NCBI GenBank assembly: GCA_017411385.1
Contig: JAFQQF010000006.1
Span: 62,001-126,000, forward strand
DNA: 64,000 nt
Source: Ruminococcus sp.
GTDB taxonomy: Bacteria; Bacillota; Clostridia; Oscillospirales; Acutalibacteraceae
Direction of reading: 5' to 3'
Program-made: the position numbers and the translations under genes
Shown here: positions 956 to 25,668 of the stretch, one piece after another
Layout of the letters: each line of letters opens with the position of its first letter
How positions within the stretch are numbered: position 1 is the stretch's first letter
The notes under the pieces: generated by a model
What the model was told of the DNA's origin: nothing
Database searches by the model: none
Seen by the model: the letters and a program-made list of their open reading frames with translations, nothing else

Positions 956-2877
956 TGGCATATATAAAAAAGACAGTAAGAGAAAATTGTCTTAAACTTA
1001 AGGAAACTTCAATGACTTTTGAGGATATATATAACATTGTGTTCAGCTTCAAGGACAACGTAATGGCTGAATACAATACCCTTATGGGTCCTCAGAGCGT
1101 TACATACAAGGAAGCACAGGATAATATCGAAAGCATCTCTGTTGCAATTATGAAGGAATACGGTACAGGTGAGTTTATCGGCTTGTATGCAGAAAACTGC
1201 GTGGAGTGGATTGAGCTTTTCTGGGCGATTCTCAGAAGCGGTAACAAGCCTTGCCTTATAAATCTTCGCCAGCCTGTAGCTTTCTCAAAAGGAATACTTG
1301 ATACACTTTCGGTAAAGCTTGTGCTTTGCAAGGATGAATGCCCTGATTTTTGTAGGGATAGCTTAAGCTTTGAGGCTTTGCTTGAGAAGGGCAGAAAGCA
1401 CAACCAAAAGGACAAAACAGATTTTGCAAATGAGTTTGCACTGTCTACTTCAGGTACTACCCTCAAAGAAAAAATCTGCATTTATTCAGGCAAAGAAGTA
1501 AGTTGTCAGATACTCAACATTTTATCTATGCAGGAGATAAATCCCGGATTGGTAGAAACCTACAAAGGAAAAATCAAAATGCTTGCATTCTTGCCTCTTT
1601 ATCATATTTTCGGTTTGGAGGCTATGTATCTTTGGTACTCCTTCTGGGGTTCAACCTTTGTTTTTCTCTCTAATATGAACCCTGACAATATACTCTACAC
1701 AATCCGCAGATACGAGGTAACACACATTTTTGCAGTACCTCTGCTGTGGGAGGCTGTGGAGAAATCTCTTTTGCGCACAATAGCCACAAGAGATGAAAAA
1801 ACTCAGAAAAAGTTTGAGAAGGCAACCAAAGCTTCTCTGAAGCTTCAGAAATTTTCGCCTGCCGTTGGCAAGGTGTTTGCAAAGCTTTTTCTTAAAGATG
1901 TCAGAAGCAGGCTGTTTGGTAACAGCGTACGTTTCTGTATATCAGGCGGAAGTGCAATCAAGGAGTCCACGCTAAGACTTATCAATGCACTTGGCTATGA
2001 GCTTTATAACGGCTACGGTATGAGTGAAATCGGTATTACCTCCGTGGAGCTTTCGCGCAGGGTTTGTGAGCGTATAGAAGGCTCAATAGGCAAGCCCTTT
2101 GACTCGGTAGAGTATAAAATCGGTGAGGATAACAAGCTTTTTGTCCGCGGTGAATCTATCTGCAAAAGCGTTATTGTTGAGGGTGATAAGCTTCCTACAG
2201 AGGGTTTCTTTGACACAGGCGATGTGATGGAGTGTGACAAAAGAGGCTGTTATCACATTAAGGGCAGAATCTCTGATGTGGTGTTTGGCCCTGACGGCGA
2301 AAATCTCAATCCTGATTTTTCTGAGGATGCTTTTACTCTTTCTGAGGCGGAGGCACTGAGTGTTCTGGGCAATGAGGATAACTCAAAGCTTATACTTGTA
2401 GTGAAGCTTTCCTCTCAGCTTCCCCATGCAAAGCTTAACAGTCTGAAAGAAAAAATTCTTATGTGCAATGCTGAATTGCCTTCGTCATATCAGGTTAAGG
2501 AGTTTTACTATACCTTAAATCCAATAATGGACTCTATGGCAATTAAGGTCAGCCGTGCTTACCTTAGAAAAGCAATTTCAGAGGGTAGGGTAGTGCTTCA
2601 TAGCTTTGAAGAAAAACCGAATGAGGAAAATGTCGATGAGGATAGCGAAATTCGCTTGGCTCTCCGTGAGCTTTTCTGCAAGGTGCTTCGTAAAACACCT
2701 GATGAGATTACCGATTCAGGTCATTTTATGAACGATTTGGGCGGTACAAGTCTGGATTATTTTGCTCTTGTGGGCGAGATTGATAACCGCTTCGGAATCA
2801 CTCTCGGTTTTGAGTCGGAGCAGTTTGGTTATTGCATAGATGATTTTGAAAGAATCATAAAGGAAATGATAAGCTGA
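955..2877 (+). CDS. AMP-dependent ligase with C-terminal acyl-carrier domain
   Basis: A 640-residue two-domain enzyme. Residues ~1-550 are an ANL-superfamily adenylating domain: YNGYGMSEIG (A5), FFDTGD (A7), a KGRISD hinge (A8), and a late Lys in MAIKVSRAYLR that fits the A10 catalytic Lys. The phosphate-binding loop reads STSGTTLKEK, which lacks the usual TG and P. Residues ~565-640 are a phosphopantetheine carrier with the attachment motif GGTSLDYF (Ser599). It would activate a carboxylic acid as acyl-AMP and load it on its own carrier for transfer. It overlaps the genes on both sides (TAATG and TGATG). The acyltransferase next door suggests the acid is fatty. An NRPS-like standalone module is the alternative. 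Confidence 0.85.
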   Translation: MAYIKKTVRENCLKLKETSMTFEDIYNIVFSFKDNVMAEYNTLMGPQSVTYKEAQDNIESISVAIMKEYGTGEFIGLYAENCVEWIELFWAILRSGNKPCLINLRQPVAFSKGILDTLSVKLVLCKDECPDFCRDSLSFEALLEKGRKHNQKDKTDFANEFALSTSGTTLKEKICIYSGKEVSCQILNILSMQEINPGLVETYKGKIKMLAFLPLYHIFGLEAMYLWYSFWGSTFVFLSNMNPDNILYTIRRYEVTHIFAVPLLWEAVEKSLLRTIATRDEKTQKKFEKATKASLKLQKFSPAVGKVFAKLFLKDVRSRLFGNSVRFCISGGSAIKESTLRLINALGYELYNGYGMSEIGITSVELSRRVCERIEGSIGKPFDSVEYKIGEDNKLFVRGESICKSVIVEGDKLPTEGFFDTGDVMECDKRGCYHIKGRISDVVFGPDGENLNPDFSEDAFTLSEAEALSVLGNEDNSKLILVVKLSSQLPHAKLNSLKEKILMCNAELPSSYQVKEFYYTLNPIMDSMAIKVSRAYLRKAISEGRVVLHSFEEKPNEENVDEDSEIRLALRELFCKVLRKTPDEITDSGHFMNDLGGTSLDYFALVGEIDNRFGITLGFESEQFGYCIDDFERIIKEMIS

Positions 2878-22544: not shown

Positions 22545-23474
22545 TTAATTAACTCTGTCAAATACCACGGGGTATAGATTCTCATTAGCTCCATTGGAGT
22601 TACTTGTGAATGTGAGAGTATCCTCTGTAAGAGTGAAGTTTTCGTAGTAGTCTTCTTCGTAACCCTCTTGTGTAATATAGAGCTTTGAGCCGTCTACTCT
22701 GTAGGTGGCATTTGTAGGTTTGGACATATCGTTTACTACATCCATAGGGAACATTTCGTCAACAAGCTCAGACATAGAATTGTAGCCCATAAACTTAATG
22801 AGCTGCTGTGCAGACATATTAAGACCGCTCTGCTTAGCAACAGCCTCAATGTAGTTTGCCAAATCTCCCTCAAGCTCTTCCTTTACCAGAATGATACCTG
22901 CTTCAACACTATTCTTTTCAGGTTCAGCAATCAGCTTGCCGTCATCTGTAAAGGTGTAAATAAGCTTTGCAGGGAAGGTAGTGATGTTTACATGCTCAAG
23001 GAGCAGTTCGTCATCGGTATATAAGGGAAGCATTTCGTTGATGGATTGTGCTAAATCTGATTCTGTTTCCCAAGTACCTACAAGGCTAAGCGCAGGAGCT
23101 TCTTCATCTGTGTAAAGCAGATGAAATACAGGCTGAGGAATTTCAAGATTTGCAAGCCATTTTTGAATGATGGTTGCATCTTTAATGGTAATGTCACTTG
23201 ACAAATCTGTATCTGCAAGAATCTCAGAAGCGCCTTCAAGAGTCAAAAGTCCTGCAATATGCTTCTGAATTGCAGTTGCATCCTTAACAGTAACATTCAG
23301 AGAGTTATCTGCATCACCGATATAGCCGATGGCTTCACCCTCAACAGAGTCAAAGGGGGTACCTTCTTCTGCTGAGATGGAGAAATTATCGGGTAGGGTA
23401 TAAGCTGAAGCTGATACAAGGCTTATGCCAAGGAGCAGCAACGTTGCCAATAAAATAGAAACAATTCTTTTCAT
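22545..23474 (-). CDS. Secreted dockerin protein with C-terminal domain of unknown function
   Basis: 309 residues. A signal peptide (residues 1-24, ending ASA) is followed at ~50-110 by a type I dockerin: two Ca-binding segments, GDADNSLNVTVKDATAIQKH and ADTDLSSDITIKDATIIQKW. The remaining ~190 residues (GTWETESDL... to VVFDRVN) are strand-rich; the alternating TYRVDGSKLYITQEG and LTEDTLTFTSN pattern suggests a lipocalin-like beta barrel, a weak guess. The dockerin would plug the protein into a cohesin on a surface scaffold. It starts 20 bases after the CoA-ligase gene ends, with AGGAGG upstream, so the two may share a transcript. Confidence 0.85.
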   Translation of the reverse strand: MKRIVSILLATLLLLGISLVSASAYTLPDNFSISAEEGTPFDSVEGEAIGYIGDADNSLNVTVKDATAIQKHIAGLLTLEGASEILADTDLSSDITIKDATIIQKWLANLEIPQPVFHLLYTDEEAPALSLVGTWETESDLAQSINEMLPLYTDDELLLEHVNITTFPAKLIYTFTDDGKLIAEPEKNSVEAGIILVKEELEGDLANYIEAVAKQSGLNMSAQQLIKFMGYNSMSELVDEMFPMDVVNDMSKPTNATYRVDGSKLYITQEGYEEDYYENFTLTEDTLTFTSNSNGANENLYPVVFDRVN

Positions 23475-23494: not shown

Positions 23495-25132
23495 TTAGGA
23501 TTTATTCTGTGCGTCTACAAGCTTTGAAGCACCGTACATCTCTCGGAGCTTGGGTTTTTCGATTTTGCCTGTGGGGTTGCGAGGCACCTTTGCAAAGATG
23601 ATTCTGTGGGGACGCTTGTATCTGGGCATACCCTTACAGAATTCGTTGATTTCTTCCTCTGTAGCGGTAAAGCCTTCCTTAAGCTCAATGATTGCCGCCG
23701 CAATCTCGCCAAGGCGTTCGTCAGGCAGACCGATAACAGCAACGTCGTTGATTGCCTTGTAGCCTCTGAGGAAGTCTTCAATCTGAACAGGATAGAGGTT
23801 TTCACCGCCTGAGATGATGACATCCTTCTTACGGTCTACTAGGAAGATGAAGCCGTCTTCATCCTCTTTTGCCATATCGCCTGTGTAAAGCCAACCGTCT
23901 TTGATAGAAGCCTCTGTTGCTTTTTCATCGTTGTAGTAGCAGGTCATAACACCGGGACCCTTTACGCACAGCTCGCCAACCTCGCCTTTTTCTACAGGTA
24001 GGTTATCTTCTCCTACAATCTTAACCTCCCAACCGTAGCCGGGCTTGCCGATAGCACCAACCTTGTGGATGTTCTCAACTCCCAAGTGAACACAGCCGGG
24101 GCCGATTGACTCTGAAAGACCGTAGTTTGTGTCGTATTGATGGTCGGGGAAGTATTCCTTCCAACGTTTAATAAGGCTCATAGGAACAGGCTGTGCGCCG
24201 ATGTGCATCAACCTCCATTGTGAAAGCTCGTAATCAGCAGGGTTAAGAGCACCTGAGTCCATAGCGTTGAGTATATCCTGTGCCCAAGGAACAAGCAGCC
24301 ATACTATTGTGCATTTCTCCTTGGAAACTGCATCGAATACATATTCAGGTCTTGTGCCCTTGAGCAGTACAGCCTTTGAACCTGAAAGAAGACTTCCGAA
24401 CCAGTGCATCTTTGCACCTGTGTGGTACAAAGGAGGAATGCAAAGGAACACATCGTCTTTTGTCTGTCCGTGGTGATTTTGCTCAACACGGCAGGAATGA
24501 GTCAGGCTCTGGTGCTTGTGAAGGATTGCTTTGGGGAAGCCTGTTGTGCCGGATGAGAAGTAGATAGCGGCAAAGTCATCTTCGGTGAGAGGTATCTCGG
24601 GGGACTGAGAAGAGCACTCCATAGTCATATCAGCATAGTCCTCTGCAAAGGTGGGACATCCCTGACCGCCGGCATAAATGAGTAAGCGGTTTTTGCTGAT
24701 TGATTCCACAATATCTTCAACTCGTCCGATAAACTCGGGACCGAATACAAGAGCATCACACTCTGCAAGGTTTAAGCAGTAGTCAATCTCGTCGCTTGCA
24801 TATCTGAAGTTAAGGGGAACAGCCAGTGCACCTGTCTTGAGAATACCAAAGTAAATGGGAAGCCACTCAATGCAGTTCATCAGAAGTATAGCAACCTTGT
24901 CGCCTTTTTTGATGCCTCTTGCCATAAGTGAGTTTGCAAAGCGATTTGCTTTTTCGTTGAAAACTCCCCATGTGATTTCACGGCGGAAATATTTCTTTTC
25001 GGTTTCCTGTACAAGGTCGTAGTCACGCCATGTAAGACGTCTGGTTTCGGGCTGACCTGGGTTAATCTCTACAAGTGCCACGTCAGAGGGGAATTCAGCG
25101 GCGTTTTTTTCAAGCATATCAATAATAGTCAT
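23495..25132 (-). CDS. Acyl/aryl-CoA synthetase (AMP-forming), T-box controlled
   Basis: 545 residues from the ATG at 25132, preceded by GAGGAGAT; upstream in-frame codons belong to the T-box leader. All ANL motifs are good: YFSSGTTGFPK (A3), NYGLSES (A5), YTGDMA (A7), DRKKDVIISGGENLYP (A8), and the catalytic Lys in PTGKIEKPKLRE. It activates a carboxylic acid via the adenylate and attaches CoA. Sequence alone does not say whether the acid is a fatty, branched or aryl acid. The T-box directly upstream, with a probable tyrosine specifier, points to an acid linked to amino-acid metabolism (inference). Confidence 0.88.
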   Translation of the reverse strand: MTIIDMLEKNAAEFPSDVALVEINPGQPETRRLTWRDYDLVQETEKKYFRREITWGVFNEKANRFANSLMARGIKKGDKVAILLMNCIEWLPIYFGILKTGALAVPLNFRYASDEIDYCLNLAECDALVFGPEFIGRVEDIVESISKNRLLIYAGGQGCPTFAEDYADMTMECSSQSPEIPLTEDDFAAIYFSSGTTGFPKAILHKHQSLTHSCRVEQNHHGQTKDDVFLCIPPLYHTGAKMHWFGSLLSGSKAVLLKGTRPEYVFDAVSKEKCTIVWLLVPWAQDILNAMDSGALNPADYELSQWRLMHIGAQPVPMSLIKRWKEYFPDHQYDTNYGLSESIGPGCVHLGVENIHKVGAIGKPGYGWEVKIVGEDNLPVEKGEVGELCVKGPGVMTCYYNDEKATEASIKDGWLYTGDMAKEDEDGFIFLVDRKKDVIISGGENLYPVQIEDFLRGYKAINDVAVIGLPDERLGEIAAAIIELKEGFTATEEEINEFCKGMPRYKRPHRIIFAKVPRNPTGKIEKPKLREMYGASKLVDAQNKS

Positions 25133-25156
25133 CTTGTTATCTCCTCGGATAGAAAA

Positions 25157-25633
25157 TAAAAAAGCCTCAAAAGCACAAAGTGAAAAAGTGCTTTTGAGGA
25201 CGAAAAATCGCGGTACCACCTCAATTTGTTTCTGCTTCACAGCAGAAACCTCTGCAGGTATCTTCTGTTGAAAATACCCTGCCGTGTAACGGACGGCTCC
25301 CGTCACAGCCTACTTATCAAACCTTAGCGAGGGTTACGCACCTCGGCGCTTCTTGTCACGCCTCGTTGTGCTCCGCTACTCTAAAAAAAGTCATCGTACT
25401 CCACAAAATTGTCTGTAAGCAAATGCACAGCATTTACTTACTGTTCGTCAATTTCGGTGTCGTACTTGATTTTTTTAGGCTGCGCACCTCGGCGCTTCTA
25501 TGATGTTCGGTGTGCTGCTCTCGGAATGTATTCGGCTTTAATTTACTACAGGCTCGCACCAGCCGCCTGCTCTCTGAAAGTACTTAGTAAAGCTTACTTC
25601 TTTCCGGTCAATGCATTTGTGCTTATGAAGAAT
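25157..25633 (-). promoter_or_regulatory. T-box riboswitch leader, probable tRNA-Tyr specifier
   Basis: Read on the minus strand. Stem I has the AGUAA bulge, AGAGAG (plus coordinates 25570-25575) and a GGCUGGUGCGAGCC distal part. The specifier loop is bounded by perfect helices GCUUUA/UAAAGC and CGGAA/UUCCG and reads CGAA-UAC-A; the UAC codon (25530-25528) would be Tyr. The T-box UGGUACCGCG lies at 25218-25209; its UGGU needs an A discriminator base, which fits tRNA-Tyr. A perfect 12-bp terminator stem (25165-25199) with a T-run follows. The stretch between Stem I and the T-box is long and contains a duplicated hairpin segment. Confidence 0.88.
25337..25499. repeat. Direct repeat pair inside the T-box leader
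   Basis: The same 17 bases (CGCACCTCGGCGCTTCT on the plus strand) occur at 25337-25353 and 25483-25499, with weaker similarity beyond. Between them lies a long hairpin whose outer arms are CTAAAAAAA and TTTTTTTAG, and whose tip is a 12-bp stem at 25404-25434. Confidence 0.7.
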
Positions 25634-25639
25634 AGACAA

Positions 25640-25668
25640 ATTATAGCATTTATAATATTCCTTGTCAA
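25640..25668 (-). promoter_or_regulatory. Promoter of the T-box/CoA-ligase transcript
   Basis: On the minus strand TTGACA, exactly 17 bases, TATAAT; the transcript would begin near 25633, just before Stem I. Confidence 0.85.

Follow-up and report, generated by a model that had tools for sequence, protein, structure and literature searches.

The window, by which we mean the whole analysed stretch of 64,000 nucleotides, carries on its minus strand a gene for an AMP-forming acyl-CoA ligase that is preceded by a T-box leader and followed by a gene for a secreted protein. The following features could be identified at this locus:

25640..25668, minus strand: promoter, read from the sequence, with -35 box TTGACA (25668-25663), -10 box TATAAT (25645-25640) and a spacer of 17 nt
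25193..25620, minus strand: full-length T-box leader (RF00230, 114.9 bits, E 1.1e-24, model positions 1-219)
25522..25620, minus strand: Stem I with AGAGAG, its basal stem CGGAA/UUCCG closing the specifier loop (from the Rfam match, the alignment, and covariation in Stem I of relatives)
25528..25530, minus strand: specifier codon UAC (Tyr), placed by a position rule checked on six T-boxes of the same genome
25332..25499, minus strand: insert, a copy of a dispersed repeat of ~146 bp, in the hairpin loop 3' of Stem I, with 22-nt flanking direct repeats (borders approximate)
25194..25224, minus strand: antiterminator with UGGU bulge at 25218-25215 (from the Rfam match and the genome's own tRNA-Tyr sequence)
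25153..25199, minus strand: intrinsic terminator with perfect 12-bp arms (25199-25188 and 25176-25165) and a T run
23495..25132, minus strand: AMP-forming acyl-CoA ligase of 545 aa (PF00501 and PF13193), a proposed 4-hydroxyphenylacetate:CoA ligase
22545..23474, minus strand: secreted protein starting 20 nt past the ligase, weakly matching Lipocalin_4 and containing two repeats that look dockerin-like by eye

The leader exceeds the curated RF00230 cut-off of 93 bits, its alignment covers all 219 model positions, and it ranks second by score among the eight T-box matches of its own genome. On the minus strand AGAGAG is followed by GGUGGUACCGCG and then by the terminator hairpin with its T run, which bears out the preliminary description of a complete T-box, with consensus promoter and perfect terminator, directly in front of an AMP-forming CoA ligase (leader 25620-25193, ligase start 25132). 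The strand 25199-25194 is common to the 3' arm of the antiterminator and the 5' arm of the terminator, and the two structures are therefore mutually exclusive; the minimum-energy fold of the leader contains the terminator. Among six aligned ligase leaders the -35 box is without variation and the -10 box is retained in most. The sequence GAGGAG is located just 5' of the ligase ATG (25132).

Specifier codons were read by hand from the sequence, as the triplet that lies 5' of the basal stem's 3' strand and is separated from it by a single spacer base. This rule gave the correct codon for all six other T-boxes of the genome used as controls, i.e. UUC for pheS, ACC for thrS, GCC for alaS, CUC for a leuA-like gene, UGG for trpB and UGC for cysE-cysS (control genes were named by NCBIfam, the leuA-like gene falling below its curated cut-offs). 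Applied to the remaining leaders, it yields UAC for the ligase and AUC for a gene encoding an HTH-cupin-ligase fusion. The alternative specifiers AUA and ACA were rejected, as they break the spacing seen in the six controls and in 14 ligase leaders. The covariance-model alignment also places the specifier at UAC, the codon originally read there. In addition, the 3' end of the genome's own tRNA-Tyr (GTA anticodon) is TTCTCCC-A-CCA; since this tRNA has A73, the UGGU bulge fits its discriminator base, as had been predicted.

The best NCBIfam model for the ligase is a long-chain-fatty-acid--CoA ligase (NF004837), with a score of 415.6 that stays below the cut-off of 476. The protein in fact scores under the curated cut-off of every model among the best 25 of 108 NCBIfam matches, and the PaaK model TIGR02155 is absent among these 25. 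The solved structures closest to it are those of FadD13, FadD5, a fatty-acyl-CoA synthase and a feruloyl-CoA synthetase. The ligase is FadD/4-coumarate-ligase-like, and apparently not PaaK-type. The gene for the secreted protein (22545-23474) is possibly co-transcribed with the ligase gene and probably incidental. It was rejected as the true target of the T-box, as no such dockerin-like gene is seen 3' of the ligase among the relatives for which a downstream stretch is listed.

The leader-ligase pair in related genomes

A genus-wide search (E <= 1e-200) found the ligase in 80 of 161 genomes. The upstream stretches of all 80 ligase genes were examined, 34 with Rfam and 46 by motif scan and model R1; this model contains no base pairs and did not detect the T-boxes of L140 and L109, both of which are Rfam-positive, and it served solely as a complement to motif scans and Rfam. 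Some stretches are truncated where a contig ends (339-522 nt in five cases; L033, 358 nt; L034, 393 nt). With each genome counted once (L080 = G085, L140 = G025, L150 = G075), a T-box above the Rfam cut-off precedes the ligase in 14 of the 80 members (G000, which is the window's own genome, G010, G020, G021, G026, G028, G069, G074, G077, G078, G081, G085, G090 and G182), and none is seen in the other 66. The specifier is UAC in all 14 leaders, and the spacer base is A, except for C in G074 and G085. The pair for which the preliminary description had suggested a search among relatives does therefore recur, with the same codon. Leader and ligase have no gene between them in any of the 14 genomes, the distance from the T-box motif to the ligase start being 71 to about 103 nt; the earlier concern that a tyrosine-related gene might have been lost from this position can be set aside, since the 14 leaders leave no room for it.

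Ligases of at least 83 percent identity are encoded in 13 genomes, 12 of which have the T-box. The thirteenth, G088, is the closest relative; its leader no longer has Stem I, although promoter, T-box motif and terminator are retained:

L205 (G088:C66), bases 1331-1500, reverse strand: decapitated T-box

The ligases of G021 and G182 fall in a separate clade in a quick tree, and in both genomes the gene order is T-box, ligase, symporter. Either a single origin of the ligase T-box with many losses, or two gains, can be envisaged. Six leaders, excluding that of the window, have a common fold in which 18 of the 50 base pairs show a pair-keeping change on both sides in at least one sequence.

The IorAB module and its T-boxes

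The proposed partner enzyme of the ligase is indolepyruvate:ferredoxin oxidoreductase (IorAB), and a recurring gene order in relatives is ligase-iorA-iorB-paaK-ACT. The ligase gene lies directly 5' of iorA in G016, G025, G011, G014, G075 and G076, in each case without a T-box on the ligase, and directly 5' of a sodium symporter gene in G005, G006, G007, G013, G015, G018, G021, G024, G031, G033 and G182; the UAC T-box is present in two of these, G021 and G182. In the 80 ligase loci from named genomes (Rfam on L080, L105, L109, L140 and L145, motif scan and R1 on the others) iorA was found in 26 and paaK in 20. At least one of iorA, iorB, paaK and the symporter occurs in 36 of these loci, and none of the four near the ligase in 44, some of the stretches being short. 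IorA is present in 24 of 25 ligase-bearing genomes, including the window's own, versus 15 of 34 genomes without the ligase (p = 2e-5, which is overstated because the genomes are related).

The window's genome encodes IorAB (IOR_alpha 711 bits, cut-off 650.9; beta 281.6, cut-off 230) in a symporter-iorA-iorB-paaK-ACT operon on a separate contig, C24, unlinked to the ligase; none of the eight T-box matches of this genome belongs to the operon. Within the window's own ligase clade, iorAB was not seen adjoining the ligase. Other parts of the module, and a second type of ligase, have T-boxes with other specifiers:

L275, L276, L171 and L105, between iorB and paaK: Phe (UUC) T-boxes in the ior operon before paaK
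L281:10848-11096 (G045:C5), minus strand: Trp (UGG) T-box heading trpB-symporter-paaK-iorA-iorB-ACT
G000:C24:98157-98398 (L009:6158-6399): Ile (AUC) T-box before the gene for an HTH-cupin-AMP-ligase fusion (L009:6481-8781), for which the nearest NCBIfam model is MbcS

The Phe T-box between iorB and paaK is above the Rfam cut-off in at least four genomes (G025, which is L140, G087, G089 and L105). In G016, G075 and G076 the iorB-paaK gap is only ~60 nt, so no Phe T-box is located there; L279 (G097), where the stretch ends before paaK, was left out of this comparison. A Trp T-box on the ior module is found in at least one genome, G045. The iorA loci L051-L079 were scanned by motif and R1, with Rfam on L069, and Phe and Trp T-boxes on the module may be commoner than counted. 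In Blautia, a Trp T-box precedes a TrpB-like gene that is convergent on the ligase (L109:8285-8524 and L145:8149-8383, both minus strand).

Three aromatic specifiers are thus present on parts of one module, and each part can be matched with the amino acid concerned. T-boxes raise expression when their amino acid is short. As they induce on shortage, the module should run toward synthesis, and the Tyr, Phe and Trp switches together argue for the anabolic direction, from arylacetate via arylacetyl-CoA and arylpyruvate to the amino acid.

For the HTH-cupin-ligase gene the AUC leader could be read in 15 of the 20 loci listed, the window's genome included. An Ile T-box on an MbcS-like ligase suggests that isoleucine is made from 2-methylbutyrate. 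Elsewhere in the same genome (G000:C45:12886-17567), 2-oxoacid:ferredoxin oxidoreductase-like genes with weak IOR_alpha matches are found, and a second HTH-cupin ligase is located close to a leuA-like gene that has a Leu T-box.

The same genome also encodes, in one cluster, DAHP synthase, TyrA, AroB, AroA, AroC and chorismate mutase/prephenate dehydratase, together with a shikimate dehydrogenase/kinase fusion and, by eye, AroQ. This complete shikimate/TyrA cluster implies that the arylacetate route would be an alternative and not the sole source of tyrosine; we infer that it provides a second, ATP- and ferredoxin-driven way to this amino acid. The idea that the ligase makes up for a lost shikimate route was rejected, since 54 of 59 genomes, the window's own among them, encode TyrA (PF02153). 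In G010 the T-box ligase gene is convergent with an aro/tyrA cluster.

Proposed function and alternatives

We propose, as the probable explanation of these data, that the leader is a tyrosine-starvation switch on a predicted 4-hydroxyphenylacetate:CoA ligase, which would feed an IorAB route to tyrosine. This transcription-terminating T-box would recognise uncharged tRNA-Tyr by its UAC specifier and UGGU bulge, and when charged tRNA-Tyr is scarce the antiterminator would be stabilised and the ligase made. The enzyme would form the CoA ester of an arylacetate, with gut- or rumen-derived 4-hydroxyphenylacetate as the most likely substrate; IorAB, encoded elsewhere with PaaK and the sodium symporter, would carboxylate the CoA ester to 4-hydroxyphenylpyruvate using reduced ferredoxin, and an aminotransferase would convert this into tyrosine. 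The initial suggestion of arylacetate activation for reductive carboxylation is supported by the iorAB/paaK/symporter context and by the Phe and Trp T-boxes, with 4-hydroxyphenylacetate as the presumed substrate. Several observations speak against the proposal: the absence of an iorAB neighbour in the window's own ligase clade, the complete shikimate route, the 66 of 80 genus ligases without a T-box, the loss of Stem I in G088, the fatty-acyl and hydroxycinnamoyl ligases among the closest solved relatives, the 44 of 80 named loci without a module gene, and the lack of a Phe T-box in G016, G075 and G076.

For the module as a whole, we see an even chance that T-boxes divide it into parts, with the FadD-like ligase serving 4-hydroxyphenylacetate and tRNA-Tyr, PaaK serving phenylacetate and tRNA-Phe, and the trpB-headed version responding to tRNA-Trp. 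Together with the Ile T-box on the MbcS-like ligase, these would then form a regulon that turns microbial waste acids into amino acids in gut and rumen Clostridia.

Alternatively, the ligase could be a broad arylacetate:CoA ligase, acting on phenylacetate, indoleacetate and 4-hydroxyphenylacetate alike, with tyrosine merely the signal that evolution adopted. In T-box-free relatives the ligase and PaaK are indeed encoded in one operon without evident division of labour, and in the two Blautia loci the ligase lies beside the TrpB-like gene under a Trp T-box. We nevertheless consider broad specificity rather unlikely, as UAC is invariant across two ligase clades and paaK takes UUC in at least four genomes.

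A second alternative concerns the insert of ~168 nt, a feature additional to those of the preliminary description, which is missing from the five other ligase leaders in the six-leader alignment and extends the leader to 428 nt, compared to 217-287 nt in the other 13. The repeat has 13 matches in the window's genome, the leader copy counted, of which three are partial and several are in tandem; weaker matches occur in five of ten relatives searched. A repeat at this position could disturb folding, so that the leader would no longer be functional in this strain, and such decay is in line with the restriction of the insert to one of the six aligned leaders, with the length of this leader, by far the greatest of the 14, and with the loss of Stem I in the closest relative. 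It is improbable, however, since the insert is confined to a hairpin loop, and the arms of this hairpin remain paired in the Rfam alignment, which still scores 114.9 bits; judged from this pairing, the switch may still work. The paaK leader of L276 also has additional sequence at the same loop position.

Thirdly, the module could be oxidative and convert tyrosine into 4-hydroxyphenylacetate (Stickland), as amino-acid fermenters use 2-oxoacid:ferredoxin oxidoreductases and acyl-CoA-converting enzymes in this manner (accessible text of PMC13285125 and PMC5897657). Induction by T-boxes on scarcity makes this very improbable, and the module's switches for Tyr, Phe and Trp fit synthesis; also, AMP-forming ligases favour acyl-CoA formation, according to the accessible text of PMC13285125. 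Finally, a general fatty-acyl-CoA ligase with a T-box recruited by chance is least credible of all, albeit that fatty-acyl-CoA ligases prevail among the nearest NCBIfam and PDB names, as the protein falls under the cut-offs of all 25 best models, many relatives have the iorAB/paaK context, and UAC is conserved.

According to rumen literature of the 1960s, rumen bacteria reportedly build aromatic amino acids from arylacetates. If the tyrosine-switch proposal is correct, it offers a direct genetic handle on this synthesis, and the substrate of a widespread ligase, annotated by models as a fatty-acyl enzyme, can be read from the specifier codon. It would also provide a way to tell anabolic from catabolic use of IorAB in gut genomes; on this difference depends whether a microbe is a producer or a consumer of 4-hydroxyphenylacetate, from which p-cresol is formed.

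Comparison with known systems

The tyrS gene of Bacillus subtilis has a T-box leader. Stem I with a UAC specifier, the UGGU bulge and the terminator/antiterminator switch are shared between such leaders and that of the window, but the latter precedes an acyl-CoA ligase gene instead of a tyrosyl-tRNA synthetase gene or shikimate genes, and it has the loop insert. B. subtilis tyrS is named among T-boxes in the accessible part of a 2008 T-box survey (PMC2494555), the main text of which has, to the same extent, zero occurrences of CoA, phenylacetate or oxidoreductase, and the T-box table entries accessible in PMC6167468 are not the ligase system. A literature search, with most subscription papers outside its scope, found no paper joining a T-box with phenylacetate and a CoA ligase, with an acyl-CoA synthetase, or with IOR.

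In methanogens, IorAB is found together with an AMP-forming arylacetate ligase. The Bacteroides system of IorAB and an AMP-forming arylacetate ligase has the same partner enzyme and the same proposed chemistry as the window ligase, whereas the latter is FadD/4CL-like and has a tyrosine T-box as regulator. The IOR-linked AMP-forming ligase of Bacteroides was assayed and is an arylacetate ligase, for which the authors propose a possible biosynthetic role because AMP-forming ligases favour acyl-CoA synthesis (accessible text of PMC13285125). PaaK phenylacetate--CoA ligase (TIGR02155) has the same proposed reaction type and is a neighbour of the ligase in operons of relatives, but it apparently belongs to a different branch of AMP-forming enzymes and is preceded by a Phe T-box in at least four relatives. 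The MbcS-like ligase with its Ile T-box in the window's genome represents a parallel design (MbcS is a 2-methylbutyrate/isobutyrate:CoA ligase according to the accessible text of PMC10026030); it differs from the window ligase in its branched-chain acid, HTH-cupin fusion and Ile specifier, and its score is far below the MbcS cut-off. T-boxes and IorAB-dependent use of arylacetates are already known, and the apparently new element is a T-box on an organic-acid:CoA ligase.
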